Source: Actinomycetes bacterium (GTDB taxonomy: Bacteria > Actinomycetota > Thermoleophilia > UBA2241). From it: DNA of 35,484 nt. The notes under the pieces are model-generated. The model ran no database searches and was not told the DNA's origin. It saw only the letters and a program-made list of their open reading frames with translations. Positions 6,188 to 25,293 of this stretch are shown here, one piece after another (position 1 is the stretch's first letter; the number at the start of each line of letters is the position of its first letter). Location: assembly GCA_029547745.1 (NCBI GenBank), contig JAKPOQ010000025.1:1-35484 (forward strand), given 5' to 3'. The translations under genes were made by a program, and so were the position numbers.

Positions 6188-6874
6188 ATGCGCTTCGTGC
6201 TCGCCAGCGGCAACCGGCACAAACTGGCCGAGTTCCGCGCCGTCCTCGCGCCGCACACCGTGATCGCCATGCCGCCGGGGGTCGAGCTGCCGCCAGAGGG
6301 CACGGAGTCGTTCGCGGCCAACGCGCGCGCCAAGGCGCGCGCGTTGGCCGCGGCCGTCGCCGCCGACCCGGCGCTCTCGGCCGCCGTCGGTACGCCGCTC
6401 GACGACGTGCTTTTCCTCGCCGACGACTCCGGTCTCGAGGTGGAGGCGCTGGGATGGGCGCCGGGCGTCACGAGCGCCCGCTACGCGGGCGTCGACGGAC
6501 CCGGCGCCGACAAGGCCAACTACGAACGCCTCTTGGGCGAGCTCGCCGGCTTCGCCGGTCCGCTCGCCCGCCGTGCCCGCTTCGTGTGCACGGTTGTCGC
6601 CGTGACCCCACGGATGGAAGAATACGAGGCCACGGGATACTGGTGGGGCGCCATCGCCGAGGCGCCGCGCGGTGAAGGCGGGTTCGGGTACGACCCCGTC
6701 TTCGTCCCGGACGGGTCAGACCTCACTGTGGCCGAGTGGCCTCAGGAGCAGAAGGACCAGGCCAGTCACCGCGCGCTGGCCGGGACGGCCCTCCTCGAAC
6801 GTTTGCGACGGGAGGGGCTGCTCGATGGACGAGAGGAGCACACGCCACAGCGTGCTGGCCACGGCGAGGCCTGA
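6188..6874 (+). CDS. rdgB: RdgB/HAM1-family XTP/dITP pyrophosphatase
   Basis: Hydrolyses non-canonical purine nucleotides (XTP, dITP, ITP) to the monophosphates and so keeps them out of nucleic acids. Of 228 residues, the visible motifs are the N-terminal LASGNRHKLAEFRAVL substrate loop, TESFAANARAKARA, LADDSGLEVEALGWAPGVTSARYAG (catalytic and metal-binding acidic residues), and GEGGFGYDPVFVPDG followed near the C-terminus by SHRALA. An extra stretch at about 56-73, AVAADPALSAAVGTPLDD, lengthens the usual loop. The ATG at 6188 lies nine bases after rph. The 3' end overlaps the next gene by 50 bases. Confidence 0.95.
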   Translation: MRFVLASGNRHKLAEFRAVLAPHTVIAMPPGVELPPEGTESFAANARAKARALAAAVAADPALSAAVGTPLDDVLFLADDSGLEVEALGWAPGVTSARYAGVDGPGADKANYERLLGELAGFAGPLARRARFVCTVVAVTPRMEEYEATGYWWGAIAEAPRGEGGFGYDPVFVPDGSDLTVAEWPQEQKDQASHRALAGTALLERLRREGLLDGREEHTPQRAGHGEA

Positions 6875-7787
6875 CCACGACCCGCACGCCGACGTCCTCG
6901 ACCACCGCCTCAAGTCGCGCGCTGCGACCGTCTCCATCGTCTCGAACTCCGTCCTCATCGCCTTCAAGCTCGTGGTCGGGTTCATGTCGGGCTCGATCGC
7001 GATCGTCTCCGAGGCGCTCCACTCCGGCTCCGACCTCATCGCCGCGCTGATCGCATTCGCCGCGGTGCGACGGGCGGCGCAGCCGCCGGACGCCCGTCAT
7101 CAGTACGGCCACGAGAAGGTCGAGAACGTGTCCGGCGCCATCGAGGCCCTGCTCATCATCGGCGCCGCGGCGGTGATCATCGTCGAAGCGGTCCACAAGC
7201 TCATCGACGGCGTGACCATCGACCACGTCTGGCTGGGCGTCCTCGTCATGGGGGTGTCCGGCGTCCTCAACCTCACGGTGTCGCGGGCAGTCCTCTACCC
7301 GGCGGCGAGACGGACGCGCTCGGCCGCCCTCGAGGCCGATGCCGCCCACCTCCTGACGGACGTCTACACCTCGTTCGGCGTCGCCGGCGGTCTGGTCGCC
7401 GTCCGACTGACCGGCATCGAGTCGATCGACCCCATCGCCGCCATCGCCGTGGCCACCCTGATCGTGCGCACGGGGTACAGGCTGGTCGTCGGCTCGACGC
7501 GGGTGTTGCTCGACGAGACGCTGGACGCCGAGGACCTGGAGGCGATCCGCGCCGTCGTCAACGACCACCGGGGCACGATGATCGCCGGCTATCACAAGCT
7601 GCGCGCCCGCCAGGCCGGCAGCCGCCGGCACATCGACCTCCACGTGACGGTCGACGAGGCGCTCAGCGTGGGGGAGGCGCACGACGTGGCCGAGCACATC
7701 GCCGCCGACATCCGCGACCGCATCCCCAACTCCGACGTGCTGGTGCACATCGAGCCCCGTTCGCACGAGCGGGTCGACGGTTCCTGA
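6825..7787 (+). CDS. Cation diffusion facilitator (CDF) family metal transporter
   Basis: A 320-residue divalent-metal efflux protein exchanging Zn2+, Mn2+, Fe2+ or similar for protons at the cytoplasmic membrane. It has six predicted helices, with the metal-site motifs SEALHSGSD in TM2 and EADAAHLLTD in TM5, each with the HxxxD spacing. The HQYGHEKVE stretch follows TM3, and there is a soluble C-terminal dimerisation domain with HIDLHVTVDEALSVGEAHDVAEHI. The ATG at 6825 has GGAGGGG (6811-6817) seven bases upstream and overlaps the end of rdgB; the frame is open further upstream but reads rdgB out of frame there. In this position it is the last gene of the murI-led run, converging on the NRAMP gene. 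Confidence 0.92.
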   Translation: MDERSTRHSVLATARPDHDPHADVLDHRLKSRAATVSIVSNSVLIAFKLVVGFMSGSIAIVSEALHSGSDLIAALIAFAAVRRAAQPPDARHQYGHEKVENVSGAIEALLIIGAAAVIIVEAVHKLIDGVTIDHVWLGVLVMGVSGVLNLTVSRAVLYPAARRTRSAALEADAAHLLTDVYTSFGVAGGLVAVRLTGIESIDPIAAIAVATLIVRTGYRLVVGSTRVLLDETLDAEDLEAIRAVVNDHRGTMIAGYHKLRARQAGSRRHIDLHVTVDEALSVGEAHDVAEHIAADIRDRIPNSDVLVHIEPRSHERVDGS

Positions 7788-7838: not shown

Positions 7839-9104
7839 TCATGTCACCAGTGGCCCCAGGAGGAGGAGGACGCTCATCGCGATCAAGACGAGGGAGAACG
7901 CCCAGGCGATCGCGTTGTACGCCGGCCCGTTCACGTGTTCTCCCATCACCTGGCGGTCGTTCACGATCTTGAGGACGTAGATGAGGATGATCGGCAGCAG
8001 CACTCCGTTCACGTCCTGCGAGAGAATCATCACCTTGACGAGCGGCAGGCCGGGGATCATGGCGACGAGGGCCGGTACGAGGACGAAGAAAGTCAGCAGG
8101 CCGTGGAACACCGGGGCCTCGGACATCTCCCGGTCCAGCCCGGCCTCGAAGCCGAACGCCTCACAGATCGCATAGGCGGTCGTCAGCGGAAGGATGGCGG
8201 CGCCGAGGATCGACACGGTGAGCAGGCCGACGCCGAAGAGCACGTAGGCGAGTTGACCGGCGATCGGTTCCAGCGCCCGGGCCGCGTCCTGGGCCGTCTC
8301 GACGACGATGCCTTGCCTGAAGAGCGTCGCCGCGCAGGCGACGACGATGAACAGGTCGATGACGTCGGTGAAGACGGCCCCTGTGTAGACCTCCATCCGC
8401 GTGTACCTGTAGTCACGGAGGCTGACATGCTTGTCCACGACGTAGGCCTGGATGAAGAACTGCCCCCACGGGGTGATCGTCGTCCCGATGGCGGCGACCG
8501 CGGTGAGAAGCCAGAGGCCGGAAGCGCTGGCCGTGGGCACGAAGGCGCCACGAAGGACGGCATGCCAGTCAGGGCGGGCGATGACCCCGGCGACGATGTA
8601 GGCGACGTAGATCGTGGTCAGGAAGAGGAAGACACGTTCGACCCGGCGGTACGAGCCGCGCGTGATGAGAAGCCACACGCCGCCGGCGACCGGCGGCACC
8701 GCGGCCCAGGCCGGCACATGTGCCAGCCCGAAGGCCGCGGCGACGCCGGAGAACTCGGCGACCGTGGTGCCGAAGTTCGCGACCAGCAGGGCGAGCATGG
8801 CGAACGCCATGACCCGCAGGCTGAAGCGTTCGCGGATGAGCGCGGCGAGCCCTTTGCCCGTGACCACCCCCATGCGGGCGCCCATCTCCTGGGTGACGGC
8901 GAGGATGGGCGTGATCACCAACAGCAGCCACAGCAGGCTGTACCCGTACCTCGCGCCGATCACGGACCAGGTCGTGATGCCCCCGGCGTCGTTGTCGGCG
9001 GCGGCGGCGATGAGGCCGGGCCCTACCGTGGCGAAGATGATCGCCAGGCGCGAACGCCCGACGCGGGGCCCGACTTGGGCGTCTAGCCTGCGCTGCCGCG
9101 CCAT
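7839..9104 (-). CDS. NRAMP-family divalent cation transporter, probably Mg2+-type (NRMT-like)
   Basis: A 421-residue, eleven- to twelve-helix protein of the NRAMP fold. The canonical TM1 motif DPGN is replaced by DAGG (residues 39-42, in AAAADNDAGGITTW), and the TM6 MPH motif is replaced by TPW (211-213, in IGTTITPWGQFF). In classical Mn/Fe NRAMPs the Met selects against Mg2+ and Ca2+. Its loss, together with an upstream M-box and a co-transcribed MgtE-like regulator, argues for Mg2+ transport, as described for NRAMP-related Mg transporters. The start at 9104 is chosen because MARQRRLD has GGAGG eight bases upstream; the frame is open to 9179 but that overlaps the preceding gene. It lies ten bases after the PRC/MgtE_N/CBS gene. 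Confidence 0.85.
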   Translation of the reverse strand: MARQRRLDAQVGPRVGRSRLAIIFATVGPGLIAAAADNDAGGITTWSVIGARYGYSLLWLLLVITPILAVTQEMGARMGVVTGKGLAALIRERFSLRVMAFAMLALLVANFGTTVAEFSGVAAAFGLAHVPAWAAVPPVAGGVWLLITRGSYRRVERVFLFLTTIYVAYIVAGVIARPDWHAVLRGAFVPTASASGLWLLTAVAAIGTTITPWGQFFIQAYVVDKHVSLRDYRYTRMEVYTGAVFTDVIDLFIVVACAATLFRQGIVVETAQDAARALEPIAGQLAYVLFGVGLLTVSILGAAILPLTTAYAICEAFGFEAGLDREMSEAPVFHGLLTFFVLVPALVAMIPGLPLVKVMILSQDVNGVLLPIILIYVLKIVNDRQVMGEHVNGPAYNAIAWAFSLVLIAMSVLLLLGPLVT

Positions 9105-9114
9105 CGAGGCCTCC

Positions 9115-10365
9115 TCAACGGAAGATCCTCGGCAGGCGATTCTTCCATGCCGGCGGCAGCACCAGATCGATGGCGTCATCGACGGTGATGATGCCGTGCA
9201 GCCGGCCGTCCTCGTCGACGACGGGCAGGGCGAGAAGGTTGTACTTGGCGATGAGCTGGGTGATCTCCTCGCGGCTCGCGTCGGTGCGGACCGCGATCGG
9301 GTTCCCGGTCATGAAGTCGCGTACCTTGCGCTCCGGCGGGGTCATCAGCAGCTCGCGCAGCGAGAAGACGCCGCGCAGCTTGCGGGAGCGGTCGAGTACG
9401 TAGATGTAGTAGAGGGTCTCGACCTCTTCGTTCTGCCGCCGCAGGCTCTCGAGGGCCTCGGCCGCCGTGGCGTCCGGTCTCACCCAGGCGAAGTCCGGGG
9501 TCATGATGCCGCCGGCCGAGTCCTCGGGATAGCTGAGGAGCTCGCGCATGTCGTCGGCGTCGTCCTTCTCCATCAGCGCGAGCAGATGGGCGCGACGGTC
9601 GTCGGGCAGAGCGGCGAGGAGGTCCGCGGCGTCGTCCGGCGACATCTCCTCGAGGAGTTCGCTGGCCTTCTCGTCGGGCATGTCGACAAGCAGCGCCGCC
9701 TGGAAGGACGGGTGCATCTCCTCGAAGGTGTCGGCGGCGACCTCATCGTCGAGGGCGTCGAGGACAGCGGCGCGCTCGTCAGGCGAGAGCTCGTAGACGA
9801 GGTCGGCGATGTCGGCGGGGTGAAGGAGCTCGAGCTTGGTGCGCGGCACGGCGAGGCGGACCCAGCTCTCGTCGGTCTGCGAGAGGTCGACCTGGCGCCA
9901 GTCGATCAGGCGCGGGCGGGGCTTCTGTCGTCCCATGCTCAGACGCTCGCTCACGCGGCCGAGGCCGATGCGCCGCAGGATCGCGCTGCTCGACACGTCG
10001 ACGGCGGCGACGCGCACGTCCTCCCCCGTACGGACGAGCTGGATGTCGTTGACGCGGATGACCTTGCGGCCCTCGGTGTCGACGAGTTGCTTGTCGAGGA
10101 AGGCCGTGGCGAGCAGGCGCTCGTCGGGCTCAAGCTCGCGCTCGGTCAGCGTGTTGCCGGCGACGCGCAGCAGGGTGCCTGACTCCTCGAAGCTCGAAAC
10201 GACGTCCCAGGAGGCGAGGACGAGCTTGCCTCGGCGTCTGACCGTCAGCGCCGTGACACGCGGATAGACTGGTCGGGTCGTCACGACGATGTCGTAGAGC
10301 CTGCCGACCGTCTTGTCTTCGACGTCCTTGACTCTGCTGCCGAGCAGCTTGCTGAGGAAGAACAA
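9115..10365 (-). CDS. Soluble PRC-barrel / MgtE_N / CBS-pair protein (Mg2+ sensor-like)
   Basis: A 416-residue cytosolic protein with no membrane span. In order it shows PRC-barrel-like segments (about 1-80 and 85-150), an MgtE intracellular N-domain (about 175-285, rich in acidic and helical repeats such as LHPADIADLVYELSPDERAA), and two CBS domains (about 285-415) beginning with the MgtE signature YPEDSAGGIMTPDF. MgtE normally continues into a five-helix Mg2+ channel; here the protein ends at the second CBS domain, and the next gene supplies an NRAMP pore. Start: TTG at 10365 has a perfect AAGGAGG eight bases upstream; the longer frame to 10548 runs through the riboswitch leader and is rejected. 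Likely role: Mg2+-sensing gate or partner of the NRAMP protein. Confidence 0.85.
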   Translation of the reverse strand: MFFLSKLLGSRVKDVEDKTVGRLYDIVVTTRPVYPRVTALTVRRRGKLVLASWDVVSSFEESGTLLRVAGNTLTERELEPDERLLATAFLDKQLVDTEGRKVIRVNDIQLVRTGEDVRVAAVDVSSSAILRRIGLGRVSERLSMGRQKPRPRLIDWRQVDLSQTDESWVRLAVPRTKLELLHPADIADLVYELSPDERAAVLDALDDEVAADTFEEMHPSFQAALLVDMPDEKASELLEEMSPDDAADLLAALPDDRRAHLLALMEKDDADDMRELLSYPEDSAGGIMTPDFAWVRPDATAAEALESLRRQNEEVETLYYIYVLDRSRKLRGVFSLRELLMTPPERKVRDFMTGNPIAVRTDASREEITQLIAKYNLLALPVVDEDGRLHGIITVDDAIDLVLPPAWKNRLPRIFR

Positions 10366-10390
10366 CCGTCCCACCTCCTTTCGTCTGCGT

Positions 10391-10423
10391 GGCGGCCGCA
10401 CGATCGAAGGTCGTGCGGCCGCC
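10391..10423 (-). promoter_or_regulatory. Strong hairpin in the expression platform of the M-box leader
   Basis: A perfect 13-bp stem, GGCGGCCGCACGA (10391-10403) with its complement (10411-10423) and a 7-base loop. It lies between the aptamer and the Shine-Dalgarno sequence (10374-10380) of the downstream gene. A second 9-bp hairpin with a four-base loop lies at 10436-10457. There is no U-tract, so whether it terminates transcription or only insulates the ribosome-binding site is uncertain. Confidence 0.55.
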
Positions 10424-10487
10424 ATTAACGACCACGAGCCTTCCTCGCGGAAGGCTCCGGGCGCGCCGCAGGCTTGGGCGATCCTCA

Positions 10488-10642
10488 CTCGTCCACAAGC
10501 TTTAGCACAGCACACCGTAGAGGGCGGAGCCTCAGCCGTTTTGGGCAAAACCTTGAGCCGGTAGTGCCTGTCCTACCCGTCGGCGTCTCTCGACGTTTCC
10601 GGGCAACGGCCTCTATGTGTGCCGGAGCCTCACCTAACGAGG
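10488..10642 (-). promoter_or_regulatory. M-box (ykoK) magnesium riboswitch aptamer
   Basis: Reading the minus strand, the conserved M-box blocks occur in order. The 5' block GTTAGGTGAGGCTCC is at 10638-10624. The GTCGAGAGACGCC loop core is at 10594-10582, followed by a GACGGGT segment. The 3' block TGCTAAAGC is at 10507-10499. The closing stem pairs CTCGT near 10641 with ACGAG at 10492-10488. The leader lies immediately upstream of the MgtE-like/NRAMP operon. M-box RNAs are known to sense Mg2+ and shut off Mg2+ transporter genes when Mg2+ is high. Confidence 0.93.
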
Positions 10643-10668
10643 ATGGCGCCATGGTGTGACGCGCCCGA

Positions 10669-10698
10669 AACGTACTCCCGCCGTGAGCCAGGTGTCAA
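10669..10698 (-). promoter_or_regulatory. Promoter of the M-box/MgtE-like/NRAMP operon
   Basis: On the minus strand TTGACA (10698-10693) is separated by 18 bases from TACGTT (10674-10669). The predicted transcription start, near 10662, leaves about 20 bases before the first M-box stem. This is the only consensus -35 in the divergent region. Confidence 0.75.
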
Positions 10699-20647: not shown

Positions 20648-21940
20648 TTACTTCGCGGCGCCCGTCTTCTTGGCCTTGACTGGCTTGCTGCCGGGACGGA
20701 CGGCCATGTTGCGGTACACCTGCGCCATGTCCTCGGCCGTGAACTTGCGGGGGTTGTTCGCCCATAGACGTCCCTGGGTGAGGGCGCCCTCGACGAGGTC
20801 GGGGATCGCCGACTCGGGGATGTCGACATCACTCAGGTACTGCGGCACGTTGAGGTCGACGGCGAGCTGACGGAACGCGGCGATGGTCTTGTCGGCCGCC
20901 TCGCGGTCGCTCAACCCCTCCATGTTCTCGCCCATCGCCTCACCGATCTCGCGGAACCACGGCAGACACGAGAGCATGTTGTACTCCATGACCCACGGCA
21001 GCATGAGCGTGTTGGCGACGCCGTGCGGCACGTGGAACATGCCGCCGATCGGGTACGACAGGGCATGCACGGCGCCGACGCCCGCGTTGCCGAAGGCGAT
21101 GCCACCCAGTAGCGAGCCCATGGCCATGTTGTGGCGAGCCCACGCGTTGCTGCCGTCGTAGGTGGCGGTGCGGATGCTCTTCGAGATCAGCTTGATGCCT
21201 TCGTAAGCCAGGGGGTCGGTGTGCATGGTCGCGTTCACCGAGATGTAGGCCTCGATACAGTGGATGAGGGCGTCCATGCCCGACGCGGCGGTGACGTTGG
21301 GCGGGCAGCTCCATGTGAGCACCGGGTCGACAAGCGCGATGTTCGGGATGAGGAAACCGCTGACGACGCCCTGCTTCACGTTCAGCTTCTCGTTCGCAAA
21401 GATCGCGATGTTGGTGACCTCCGAGCCGGTGCCCGCGGTGGTCGGCACAGCGATGATCGGCAGACCCTTCTTCGGCACCTTGTCGACGCCGACGAAGTCC
21501 TCGACTTTGGCATTACTGCCGACGAGGACGGCGACGATCTTGGCGACGTCGATCGCTGAGCCGCCGCCGAAGCCGACGATGCAGTCGAACTTGCCGTTCT
21601 CGGCCATCTTCACGATGTCGTCCACGCTGCTCATCGGCGGCTCGGGTACGGCCTTGTCGTACACGCCGGTCTCGAGCCCGGCTCCGCGCAGGGGCTCCTC
21701 CACTTGGGCGATCGAGCCGGTGCAGGCGACGCCCGGGTCGGTGATGATGAGGACCTTGCTGGCGCCGAGCTTCTTCGCCTCTTCACCGATCTTGGCGACG
21801 GCGCCGTTCCCGGTGATGAGCGTCTTCGGGGCGCGATGCACGCGCACTCGGGTGTCCATGCCTCGCTCGCCTCGCTCACGGGCGCCGGCGCCGCCCGTGT
21901 CGTCGGTCGTGCGCGGTACGCCACCTGGTCTGTCAGCCAT
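20648..21940 (-). CDS. Iron-containing alcohol dehydrogenase, probably 4-hydroxybutyrate dehydrogenase
   Basis: A 430-residue group III (iron) alcohol dehydrogenase. Its position as last gene of a 4-hydroxybutyrate operon suggests it interconverts succinic semialdehyde and 4-hydroxybutyrate with NAD(P)H. Motifs: GGGSAIDVAK (NAD site, from 125), PTTAGTGSE, and metal ligands Asp223, His227, His292 and His306 (GMDALIH, GVGAVHALSYPIGG, HVPHG). ATG 21940 has TAGGAGG five bases upstream, so the roughly 27-residue low-complexity head is real; the tail is Lys-rich (KPVKAKKTGAAK). Substrate is inferred from context: 1,3-propanediol or lactaldehyde reduction cannot be excluded by motifs alone. Confidence 0.85.
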   Translation of the reverse strand: MADRPGGVPRTTDDTGGAGARERGERGMDTRVRVHRAPKTLITGNGAVAKIGEEAKKLGASKVLIITDPGVACTGSIAQVEEPLRGAGLETGVYDKAVPEPPMSSVDDIVKMAENGKFDCIVGFGGGSAIDVAKIVAVLVGSNAKVEDFVGVDKVPKKGLPIIAVPTTAGTGSEVTNIAIFANEKLNVKQGVVSGFLIPNIALVDPVLTWSCPPNVTAASGMDALIHCIEAYISVNATMHTDPLAYEGIKLISKSIRTATYDGSNAWARHNMAMGSLLGGIAFGNAGVGAVHALSYPIGGMFHVPHGVANTLMLPWVMEYNMLSCLPWFREIGEAMGENMEGLSDREAADKTIAAFRQLAVDLNVPQYLSDVDIPESAIPDLVEGALTQGRLWANNPRKFTAEDMAQVYRNMAVRPGSKPVKAKKTGAAK

Positions 21941-21963
21941 GATGCCTCCTAGGGGGTTGGCGG

Positions 21964-23274
21964 TCAGCGCGAAAGGCGGCCGGGTCCGTAGACGGCGGCC
22001 GCCTCATCGCGGATCTGGTCGTGGAACGCGGGGTCGGCGATCGCGAGCAGCGCTTCGGCGCGGTCGCGCAGACCCTTGCCGCGCAAGTGGGCGATGCCAT
22101 GTTCGGTGACGACCCAGTCGACGTCGGCGCGCATCGTCGTCACCGCGGCGCCTCGGTCGAGGGTGGCGACGATCCGCGAGACGGCGCCCTTCTTGGCCGT
22201 CGACGGCAAGGCGATGATCGCCTTGCCGTCGCGGCTGCGGGCGGCGCCGCGCACGAAGTCGACCTGCCCGCCGATGCCGGTGAACTGCACAGGCCCCAGA
22301 GTGTCGGCGACGACCTGGCCCATCAGGTCGACCTGGATCGCGGAGTTGATCGCCACGACGCGGTCGTTCTGTCCGATCACGTAAGGGTCGTTGACGTAGT
22401 TGACCGGGAACATGTTGACGGCCGGGTTGTCGTCGACGAAGTCGTAGAGCCGGCGGGTCCCCATGAGAAAGGTGGCCACCATCTTGTCGCGGTTGATGGC
22501 CTTGTTGCGATTCGTGATGACGCCTTCGTTGTAGAGGTCGACGACGCCCTCGCTGAACATCTCGCTGTGGACGCCGAGGTCGTTCTTCTCGTGGAGGAAG
22601 AGCAGCACGGCGTCGGGGATGCCGCCGATGCCGAGCTGCAGGCAGGAGCCGTCCTCGACCAGACTCGCGATGTTCCTGCCGATGGCCTCTTCGACCGGGC
22701 CGATGTTCGGCGGCTGCAGCTCGATGATCGGCTGCTCGCTCTCGACGACGACGTCGATCTCGGACACGTGGATGAACGCGTCGCCATGGGTGCGCGGCAT
22801 GTTCGGGTTGACCTGCGCGACCACCGTCTTTGCGACCTGGGCGGCGGGCTTGGTGTAGTCGACCGAGACGCCGAACGAACAGAAGCCATGCTTGTCGGGT
22901 GGGGAGACATGGATCAGGGTCACGTCGGGGGGCAGGTAGCCCTCGCAGAACAGCTTGGGGATCTCGCTGAAGAACACGGGGATGTAGTCGCCGCGCCCGT
23001 CCTTTACCGCCTCCCGCGTGCTGGCGCCGACGAAGAGCGACTTGTGGAAGAACGAGCGCGCCATCTCCGGCTGCGCGTACTCCCCCTTGCCCATGGCGAC
23101 CATATGGTTTATCTCGACGTGCTCCAGCTCGGGAGCGCGGGCGACGAGCGCGTCGACGAGGTCGAGCGGCTCGCCACAGGCGTGGGCGAACACGACGCGG
23201 TCCCCCGACTTGACGACCTTCAGCGCCTCGGCCGCTGTCGTGACCTTGCTGGCGTAGTCGGACTTCCAGTCCAT
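21964..23274 (-). CDS. 4-hydroxybutyrate CoA-transferase (AbfT/Cat2-like)
   Basis: A 436-residue class I CoA-transferase/acetyl-CoA hydrolase-family enzyme moving CoA from acetyl-CoA to 4-hydroxybutyrate. Features: SPPDKHGFCSFGVSVDY, CLQLGIGGIPDAVL, and HSEMFSEGVVDLYNEG with Glu238 at the covalent-intermediate position of this family. The C-terminal half has GPVQFTGIGGQVDFVRGA, ADVDWVVTEHGIAHLRGK and the usual GR end. Start ATG 23274 is four bases after the small Cys-rich gene and has AAGGAG seven bases upstream; the longer frame to 23370 overlaps that gene and is Arg/Ser-rich. Neighbours (dehydratase and dehydrogenase) fix the likely substrate as 4-hydroxybutyrate rather than succinate or butyrate. 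Confidence 0.92.
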   Translation of the reverse strand: MDWKSDYASKVTTAAEALKVVKSGDRVVFAHACGEPLDLVDALVARAPELEHVEINHMVAMGKGEYAQPEMARSFFHKSLFVGASTREAVKDGRGDYIPVFFSEIPKLFCEGYLPPDVTLIHVSPPDKHGFCSFGVSVDYTKPAAQVAKTVVAQVNPNMPRTHGDAFIHVSEIDVVVESEQPIIELQPPNIGPVEEAIGRNIASLVEDGSCLQLGIGGIPDAVLLFLHEKNDLGVHSEMFSEGVVDLYNEGVITNRNKAINRDKMVATFLMGTRRLYDFVDDNPAVNMFPVNYVNDPYVIGQNDRVVAINSAIQVDLMGQVVADTLGPVQFTGIGGQVDFVRGAARSRDGKAIIALPSTAKKGAVSRIVATLDRGAAVTTMRADVDWVVTEHGIAHLRGKGLRDRAEALLAIADPAFHDQIRDEAAAVYGPGRLSR

Positions 23275-23278
23275 CCCA

Positions 23279-23644
23279 TCACTCCTTGAGCTTGTCGATG
23301 ATCGTCGCGGAGACCGTGTCGGGCGTCGTCGGTACGCCGTCGACGCAGGCGCCGGCGACGACCGCCTCATCCGGGTCGTCCGTGGTCAGCCGGTGATCCG
23401 ACGCGCACGACCGCTGGCAGCCGGAGAGATAGACGGTCGCCCCGAGGCGCATGAAACCCGGCGACGATCTCAGCTCTCGTGCGATCGCCGCACGGTCGAT
23501 CTGGGGGTTGCACCCGCCGCAATAGATGATCCGCGGAGCGCAAGCCGCTGTCGTTGGCGGACGGCCGCCGTCTGGAGTGACCGGGCCGTTGCCGGGCGCC
23601 GGCGGCGGAGCCGCCGGCGCCCGGATGTGCACACTCTCGGTCAC
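23279..23644 (-). CDS. Small Cys-rich protein of unknown function in the 4-hydroxybutyrate operon
   Basis: A 121-residue protein I cannot assign. Residues 1-37 form a Pro-rich linker; the core reads IIYCGGCNPQIDRAAIARELR, later GATVYLSGCQRSCASDH, with Cys at 35, 42, 45, 76, 80 and 100. The alternation of two short Cys pairs about 30 residues apart on a small alpha/beta core suggests a metal- or Fe-S-binding, thioredoxin-like fold. The GTG at 23644 overlaps the TGA of the dehydratase gene (GTGA), and the CoA-transferase begins four bases after its end, so it is fully embedded in the operon. An electron carrier or cofactor-assembly role for the [4Fe-4S]/FAD dehydratase is possible but not shown. 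Confidence 0.75.
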   Translation of the reverse strand: MTESVHIRAPAAPPPAPGNGPVTPDGGRPPTTAACAPRIIYCGGCNPQIDRAAIARELRSSPGFMRLGATVYLSGCQRSCASDHRLTTDDPDEAVVAGACVDGVPTTPDTVSATIIDKLKE

Positions 23645-25137
23645 TTGGCGGCGGCCGCCGGCCTCGTGAGCTTGGCCTTCTCCCACGGCCTGCCCGTCTG
23701 GGCGAGGGCCCTGGCGAGCTCCTTCTTGTGGTCGAGGTTCGACTGCCGGGCGATCATGATGCGCTGTGCCTGGGGGGAGCCGGCGCCGTGCATCGATTCG
23801 GTGCGGTAGCCGACGGCGGCGGTGCCCAACGTGAGGTTCTCGATGAGGCGCAGCACGCGCATGCGGTCGAGGGTGGGCGTGTCACACACGCCGACGAGGT
23901 ATTTCTCGATTAGGGGACCGGTCTTCTCGCTCGCCAGGTCCTGGGCGGCCGGCATCGTGACCATGAGTCCGCCGGCGAGGTCTTCGGCAAGGCGGGCGAT
24001 CTCGTAGGGGAACCGCGTGATGTTCTGCTTGCAGACGTTGGCGAGCAGCAAGTCGATCTCGTAGTTGCCCGACGGGGTCCGGTGCCCCTCGGACGAGCAG
24101 GCGATGCCGCACGAGAAGAGCGTCTCGTTGAGGTGGGTCATCTCGATGATCTTGTCCTTGATGTGGCTCGCCCTGGGGACGCCGTTCATGTCGGCGGCCA
24201 AGGCAGCCGCGCCGATGAGGACGTCGCCGACGCCGACCTTGCAGCCGCCGTAGCTCTGGCGATGGTAGCCCGCGAAACGCTCGACCAACGCTCCCGAGAA
24301 CTCGATCTCGCCGCAGAGGTAGACCCTCTCCCAGGGGATGAAGACGTCGTCGAAGACCACCAGGGCCTCCTGTCCGCCGAAGCGGGCGTTGCCCACGTCG
24401 AGGTCGTTCCCCTCGAGCTTGCGCGTGTCGCAGCTCTGTCGTCCGTAGATGTAGCTGATCCCCTTCGTGTTGGCGGGCGTGCTGAAAGAGACGGCGTAGT
24501 CTTCGTCGCCCGCGCGCATGGCGACGGTCGGCATGACGAGGATCTCGTGCGAGTTGCAGGCTCCAGTCTGGTGCGCCTTGGCGCCGCGCACGACGATGCC
24601 GTCGTCGCGCCGTTCGACGACGTGGACGTACATGTCCGGGTCTTCCTGCTGCGACGGCGCCTTGCCGCGATCGCCCTTAGGATCGGTCATCGCGCCGTCG
24701 ACGACGAGGTCGTTGTCCTGGATGTACTGGACGTACTTCGTGAAGCGCTCGTGGTAGTCGGTGCCTTTGGCCTGGTCGCAGTCGTAGGTCACCGACCACA
24801 CCGCGTTCAGGGCGTCCATCCCTACGCAGCGCTGGAAGCACGAGCCGGTCTTTTGGCCCAGCAGGCGTTGCATCTTGACCTTCTTGACCAGGTCGTCGGT
24901 CGACTGGTGGATGTGGGTGAAGCGATTGACTTTCTTGCCGGTGAGGTGGCTGGTCGCCAGCATCAAGTCCTCGTACTCGGGATACTGGGCCAACTCGTAC
25001 GTCATCGCCATGCAGTTGAGGCTCGGGCGGATGATCGGGTGGTCGACGTAGTCCTTCACCCGCTCGCCGAACATGTAGATCTCGAGGTCGAGGTCGGCGA
25101 TGGTCTGGATGAACTCCCGAGGGGTCTTGAGAGCCAT
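23641..25137 (-). CDS. abfD: 4-hydroxybutyryl-CoA dehydratase / vinylacetyl-CoA isomerase
   Basis: An FAD and [4Fe-4S] radical enzyme that dehydrates 4-hydroxybutyryl-CoA to crotonyl-CoA. The 498-residue protein keeps all four cluster ligands at the positions known from the Clostridium enzyme: Cys100 and Cys104 (TGSCFQRCVG), His292 and Cys299 (YHRQSYGGC). Other blocks include KVNRFTHIHQSTDDLVKKVKMQR, AHQTGACNSHEILVMPT, FDDVFIPWERVYLCGE and the C-terminal ESMHGAGSPQAQRIMI. The start ATG 25137 has AGGAAGGAG eight bases upstream; the frame is open to 25293 but that covers the promoter. It is the first gene of the operon. In fermenters this enzyme serves 4-aminobutyrate or succinate breakdown to butyrate; in some archaea a related one serves CO2 fixation. 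Confidence 0.97.
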   Translation of the reverse strand: MALKTPREFIQTIADLDLEIYMFGERVKDYVDHPIIRPSLNCMAMTYELAQYPEYEDLMLATSHLTGKKVNRFTHIHQSTDDLVKKVKMQRLLGQKTGSCFQRCVGMDALNAVWSVTYDCDQAKGTDYHERFTKYVQYIQDNDLVVDGAMTDPKGDRGKAPSQQEDPDMYVHVVERRDDGIVVRGAKAHQTGACNSHEILVMPTVAMRAGDEDYAVSFSTPANTKGISYIYGRQSCDTRKLEGNDLDVGNARFGGQEALVVFDDVFIPWERVYLCGEIEFSGALVERFAGYHRQSYGGCKVGVGDVLIGAAALAADMNGVPRASHIKDKIIEMTHLNETLFSCGIACSSEGHRTPSGNYEIDLLLANVCKQNITRFPYEIARLAEDLAGGLMVTMPAAQDLASEKTGPLIEKYLVGVCDTPTLDRMRVLRLIENLTLGTAAVGYRTESMHGAGSPQAQRIMIARQSNLDHKKELARALAQTGRPWEKAKLTRPAAAAK

Positions 25138-25264
25138 ACGGTTACTCCTTCCTGGTGCAGGCCGGTACCGGGCGCGGGCGCACGCGGAGGCGGAAGCACT
25201 CGCGCGGTGATTCGGCGGGGCGGGCACAGAGGACCCAACAGGCATTGGCACCCTCTTGACGCGA

Positions 25265-25293
25265 AACATAGGGGGCCAGGAGGTCGTTGTCAA
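25265..25293 (-). promoter_or_regulatory. Promoter of the 4-hydroxybutyrate operon
   Basis: On the minus strand TTGACA (25293-25288), a 17-base spacer and TATGTT (25270-25265) give a consensus-like vegetative promoter; transcription would start near 25258, leaving a 120-base leader. The plus strand here reads TTGTCAATCATTGTCA, a direct repeat of TTGTCA with 10-base spacing that overlaps the -35 and could be an operator. Confidence 0.75.

Follow-up and report, generated by a model that had tools for sequence, protein, structure and literature searches.

The window analysed here, a stretch of 35,484 nucleotides, carries on its minus strand a single operon in which a conserved promoter and an M-box are followed by a gene for a soluble PRC/MgtE_N/CBS protein, here called the partner, and by an Nramp gene (Table 1). 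This confirmed what an earlier note had observed from the sequence alone. Every coordinate of that note was found to fit, including the gap of exactly ten bases between the stop codon of the partner gene and the start codon of the Nramp gene, and the complete M-box aptamer that it described was recovered over its full length in the covariance-model search that it had suggested. This M-box is the sole copy in the genome. The promoter at 10698-10669, which the note had also proposed, was not called by a generic sigma-70 scan, and its -10 box (TACGTT) is weak. However, L140 and L143, which are near named relatives, have identical hexamers with the same 18-nt spacer 5' of their M-boxes, and therefore the promoter is very likely real.

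Table 1. Features of the M-box operon, with positions in the window
Feature	Position	Strand	Evidence or remark
Promoter, TTGACA-18-nt spacer-TACGTT	10669..10698 (TTGACA 10698-10693, TACGTT 10674-10669)	-	Hexamers and spacing shared by L140 and L143
M-box (ykoK leader) Mg2+ riboswitch aptamer	10477..10648	-	RF00380, 145 bits (gathering cut-off 44), E 4e-33, model positions 1-169 of 169
Candidate antiterminator strand GGCTCCGG in aptamer 5' side	10622..10629	-	Can pair with CCGGAGCC at 10460-10453
Terminator-type hairpin GAGCCTTCC-GCGA-GGAAGGCTC, downstream of aptamer	10436..10457	-	Stem without T run
Second strong hairpin, 14 base pairs, before Shine-Dalgarno sequence	10390..10424	-	Leader tail z-score -5.8
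Partner, PRC-PRC-MgtE_N-CBS protein, 416 aa, without membrane helices	9115..10365	-	Pfam, hydrophobicity, AlphaFold2
NRMT (Nramp-related magnesium transporter), 421 aa	7839..9104	-	Nramp 297 bits (Pfam)

The M-box leader is likely an OFF switch that acts by transcription termination, since alternative pairings and stems followed by T runs occur in relatives. The two regions of the candidate antiterminator pairing (10629-10622 and 10460-10453) are paired in the predicted ligand-free minimum-energy fold of the leader, and the GAGCCTTCC side of the terminator-type stem overlaps the second of them. In L140, seven of the eight pairs of this alternative pairing are present in the same arrangement, and the homologous stem is followed by TTTTTCTG, that is, by a T run that the window copy lacks. 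The stem is followed by TTTTTTT in L144-L146, L030, L031 and L087, several of which could use the aptamer 3' side (GGGAAGGC) for alternative pairing. A consensus scan for intrinsic terminators found none in the leader of the window. Because the stem here has no T run, termination may be weak, may depend on Rho, as has been described for a mycobacterial M-box (PMC12810186), or may be helped by the second hairpin at 10424-10390.

The partner gene starts with a TTG codon behind the Shine-Dalgarno sequence AGGAGGT at 10379-10373. The three domain types that the earlier note had described in its product were recovered with Pfam, which gave 30 bits for PRC, 104 for MgtE_N and 83 for CBS, with a PRC domain at residues 2-66, a second PRC-like domain at 82-171, MgtE_N at 181-282 and the CBS pair at 284-402. 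No hydrophobic segment was found in the 416 residues, and the five-helix membrane domain of MgtE with its Asp432 was not found. In the AlphaFold2 model (pLDDT 83, pTM 0.53), two PRC-like barrels precede an N-CBS unit, which superposes on the Mg2+-bound cytosolic domain of MgtE (2yvy) with an rmsd of 1.7 and a TM-score of 0.87 of the target. The partner thus resembles the MgtE channel of Thermus thermophilus (2yvx, 2zy9) in its cytosolic N and CBS domains, which are about 41% identical with an rmsd near 2, but it lacks the channel domain and the plug-helix sites and has the PRC barrels in addition.

Operons of this kind are known and the pairing is not new, since it was published in 2014 as an observation and a hypothesis. 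According to the accessible text of Shin et al. 2014 (PMC4072509), most NrmT genes adjoin a homologue of the MgtE cytosolic domain, many of the pairs lie behind M-boxes, and either a cytoplasmic feedback or a chaperone role was proposed for the MgtE-like fragment. The operon in the window has all three parts of this type together, the M-box, the MgtE cytosolic-domain homologue and the Nramp-related Mg2+ transporter, in that order, and the feedback idea developed below is the same. It differs in the PRC domains, which are never named in the main text of that paper, and in its origin from an actinomycetote close to Thermoleophilia.

By sequence, the transporter is an NRMT, closer to the NRMTs than to the Mn/Fe Nramps. 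Its best solved relative is EleNRMT of Eggerthella lenta (7qia; PMC8806188) with 347 bits, in comparison with 111 bits for the manganese Nramp DraNramp; these scores, together with the site residues, rule out an ordinary Mn/Fe Nramp. The metal-binding D39 is present, with G42 for the Asn of DPGN, T211 for the selectivity Met and W213 for the His that follows it. EleNRMT has the same Asp and Gly in helix 1 and likewise no methionine in helix 6, but it has Ala at the methionine site, where the window transporter has Thr211. The selectivity Met is absent from all of the 145 close sequences, which have Ala, Thr or Ser there, and Thr is found in 52 other loci. However, Thr is also found in the homologues of the Acidobacteriaceae, the family of Acidobacterium capsulatum, whose NrmT, which has the fragment, moved mainly Mn2+ (PMC4072509, accessible text), and therefore Thr211 does not settle the metal. 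It is quite unlikely, in our judgement, that the transporter moves mainly Mn2+, or both metals, and that the partner and the M-box tie it to the Mg2+ status only indirectly. This possibility draws on Thr211, on the ability of EleNRMT to transport Mn2+ as well as Mg2+ (PMC8806188), and on the A. capsulatum NrmT, which in the accessible text of Shin et al. rescued a Mn2+ defect fully and a Mg2+ defect poorly. On the other hand, the A. capsulatum case had no M-box in front, whereas there is one here, and the same text found the M-box to be predictive of Mg2+ transport (PMC4072509). Furthermore, the genome encodes a separate canonical MntH with DPGN and MPH, and no match to the MgtE membrane domain (PF01769) was found in it. 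The M-box is a stronger hint to the metal than residue 211, and the substrate would be Mg2+. The NRMT is not the only route for Mg2+, because CorA is present in the genome; for an MgtA-type ATPase, only P-type ATPases below the curated cut-off were found there. A gene for a cation-diffusion-facilitator exporter (6780-7787, plus strand; TIGR01297, 220 bits) and the NRMT gene are arranged tail to tail, with 51 bases between them.

A genome survey for conserved pairing, which the earlier note had named as a check of its proposal, showed that the pairing is conserved. The survey covered 297 genomes of the phylum and the genes around 65 NRMTs with scores of more than 270 bits. A partner gene on the same strand adjoins 63 of them, two having none, versus none of the 20 canonical Nramps of the same genomes. 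The single stray match near the latter scored 23 bits on the opposite strand, while most true partners exceed 200 bits. Chance co-location of the partner and the NRMT is ruled out by these counts. In 49 of the 63 loci, the partner has MgtE_N and/or CBS and lies upstream of the NRMT gene. This number includes two partners that were scored as downstream by the script because of an overlap of mechanically called reading frames, one that runs off its contig, which hides the PRC part, and one (L090) with a reduced MgtE_N; four of the 49 loci also have a PRC-only gene downstream. The remaining 14 loci have a double-PRC gene alone, downstream of the NRMT gene, which makes PRC the most constant part of the pairing. 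When loci with named organisms were compared, spanning Thermoleophilia, Coriobacteriia, Acidobacteriota, Nitrospirota, Bacillota, Chloroflexi and archaea, 57 of 80 had a partner, several of the others having no upstream sequence available. Many of the partner-NRMT operons have an M-box in front, and of the 27 M-boxes detected across the phylum, 11 precede a partner and an NRMT by comparison of coordinates. In L103, L105, L106, L094 and other distant NRMTs (33-37% identity), the M-box lies directly 5' of the NRMT gene, and the partner follows the NRMT gene or precedes the M-box. In L040, L045, L048 and L049, a five-helix partner with a dead pore precedes the NRMT gene and a separate double-PRC gene follows it; since these loci carry both genes, the PRC-only protein may be a second component.

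The partners of relatives differ in how much of the channel half of MgtE they retain. Twenty-six partners, 600-666 aa long, carry a C-terminal domain that is related to the MgtE membrane domain and for which four or five helices are predicted; the partner of L034, for example, aligns with MgtE through the membrane domain with 276 bits. The pore aspartate Asp432 is found in none of these 26, all of which have lost the GGN..Q motif as a whole, L034 alone retaining the Q. In contrast, Asp432 is present in 30 out of 30 canonical MgtE proteins of the same phylum, as are the G, N and Q of the motif. Eight partners retain one C-terminal helix, five of which (L071, L072, L076, L077 and L078) adjoin transporters 86-96% identical to EleNRMT, and partners of the window type have none. 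No pore-dead full-length or single-helix partners, as found here in relatives, are described in the accessible text of Shin et al. (PMC4072509). Such a series of partners is what would be expected if an MgtE had lost its pore and kept its sensor. In the partner tree, soluble partners (17 of 20, together with a paralogue described below) and membrane-bound partners form two clades with 99 and 96% support, and the one-helix partners are the only group inside the five-helix group. A single order of loss, from five helices to one helix to soluble, is thus unsupported. Because the support for the split between partners and canonical MgtE is 0 and branches in the NRMT tree are long, the direction of change was taken from the homology to MgtE rather than from the trees, which are compatible with an MgtE that lost its pore and kept its sensor but do not prove the order. 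The paralogue is a second soluble PRC/MgtE_N/CBS protein of the same genome (G000:C16:63351-64799; L027:5352-6800, minus strand), with a reading frame of 482 aa, which groups with the soluble partners; no Nramp gene is nearby, and a PASTA-type Ser/Thr kinase is encoded in its neighbourhood.

The Mg2+-binding sites, assigned according to PMC5882242, are mostly retained in the window partner. The residues of Mg4 (D244 and D397), Mg6 (D248) and Mg7 (D212 in place of E59) are present, and Mg5 is half retained, with D400 kept and D226 replaced by N376. The plug-helix sites Mg2 and Mg3 are gone (K408 and N409), as would be expected for a protein without a channel; all of the 26 five-helix partners keep both, whereas the soluble partners have lost them. 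The residues of Mg6 and Mg7 are acidic more often in partners than in canonical MgtE, in which E59 and D95 are often basic or neutral in this phylum, and thus the partners hold these two sites more strictly. The retention of most Mg2+ ligands makes it very improbable that the partner senses adenine nucleotides or another CBS ligand and that its Mg2+ sites are remnants. MgtE CBS pairs do bind ATP (PMC5529423), and the equivalents of Tyr170 and Arg187 are retained (Y320 and R337), but the adenine-stacking Phe227 is replaced by Leu and Asn203 by Thr. A role as a Mg2+ or metal chaperone, or as a factor for the assembly or stability of the NRMT, without gating of transport, seems to us unlikely, although less so. 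A chaperone was named as an alternative in the accessible text of Shin et al. (PMC4072509), and since 14 NRMT loci have no partner other than PRC barrels that lack MgtE_N and CBS, the constant role of the partner may be structural. Against such a role, the acidic residues that bridge the N and CBS domains through Mg2+ are under stricter conservation in partners than in canonical MgtE, and the five-helix partners retain the plug-helix sites that work in gating.

We regard it as probable, although not strongly so, that the partner is a sensor subunit of the NRMT, that it goes back to a dead MgtE channel, and that it shuts the NRMT at high Mg2+. This is built on findings read from sequence: the RNA, the gene pair and its conservation, the membership of the transporter in the NRMTs, the decay of the MgtE membrane domain among relatives, and the Mg2+ sites that the partner retains. 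At low Mg2+, the leader would refold and both genes would be made, and the NRMT encoded by the second gene would admit Mg2+. The product of the first gene, in which the N-CBS Mg2+ sensor of a pore-less MgtE is joined to two PRC-barrel domains, would be its regulatory subunit, likely positioned on the cytosolic face of the NRMT and in contact with it, with PRC perhaps as the docking part. At high cytosolic Mg2+, the M-box would fold and expression would stop, and Mg2+ bridging the N and CBS domains of the partner would hold the NRMT shut, inhibition being the presumed direction of the effect. The earlier note had proposed that Mg2+ is sensed twice, in RNA and in a protein made of the sensing domains of MgtE that works with an unrelated pore. 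An RNA sensor combined with an MgtE-derived protein sensor and an unrelated transporter is well supported by the conserved pairing, the retained Mg2+ sites and the dead-channel intermediates. The term pore has to be given up, since NRMTs are LeuT-type carriers.

Several findings count against a sensor subunit, namely the loss of one Mg5 ligand (D226 to N376), the sharing of Thr211 with the Acidobacteriaceae homologues, the two close NRMTs that have no partner, the PRC-only partners without Mg2+ sites, and the second partner-like gene that stands without an NRMT. According to the accessible text of Shin et al. (PMC4072509), NrmT proteins of C. acetobutylicum complemented a Mg2+-transport mutant without the fragment, and rescue was no better when the A. 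capsulatum fragment was added; both results fit an inhibitory role and neither shows it.

For the wider proposal, we would put the chances at about even: a dead MgtE channel became the regulatory subunit of an unrelated carrier by gaining PRC barrels and losing the pore aspartate while keeping the Mg2+ sensor, was then trimmed in separate lineages until a single helix, a soluble sensor or perhaps nothing but PRC barrels was left, and is the missing Mg2+-dependent gate of NRMTs, the EleNRMT lineage included. For a gate that would keep NRMTs from overloading the cell with Mg2+, the conserved partner is a concrete candidate, since it retains Mg2+ sites and has dead channels among its relatives. 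If true, this would be a clear case of a channel without a pore that survives as the regulator of another transporter. Since the partner gene adjoins the transporters closest to EleNRMT, a well-behaved, already characterised protein is available for testing the idea; its structure paper (PMC8806188) mentions neither a CBS partner nor a riboswitch. Our literature search found no further paper on the pairing of the partner with NRMTs, and none on PRC barrels with magnesium transport or on PRC-barrel, CBS, MgtE and Nramp combined. Compared with the literature found, it appears to be new that PRC is the most constant part, that there are full-length partners with a dead pore, that the Mg2+ sites are conserved and that a partner gene adjoins the transporters of the EleNRMT group, and the series of dead channels makes the suggestion of 2014 into a testable model of NRMT gating that is worth following up. 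Elsewhere in the window, at 20648-25293 on the minus strand, reading frames resembling an iron alcohol dehydrogenase, a CoA-transferase and a 4-hydroxybutyryl-CoA dehydratase stand in a row, which, judged by eye only, suggests 4-hydroxybutyrate metabolism.
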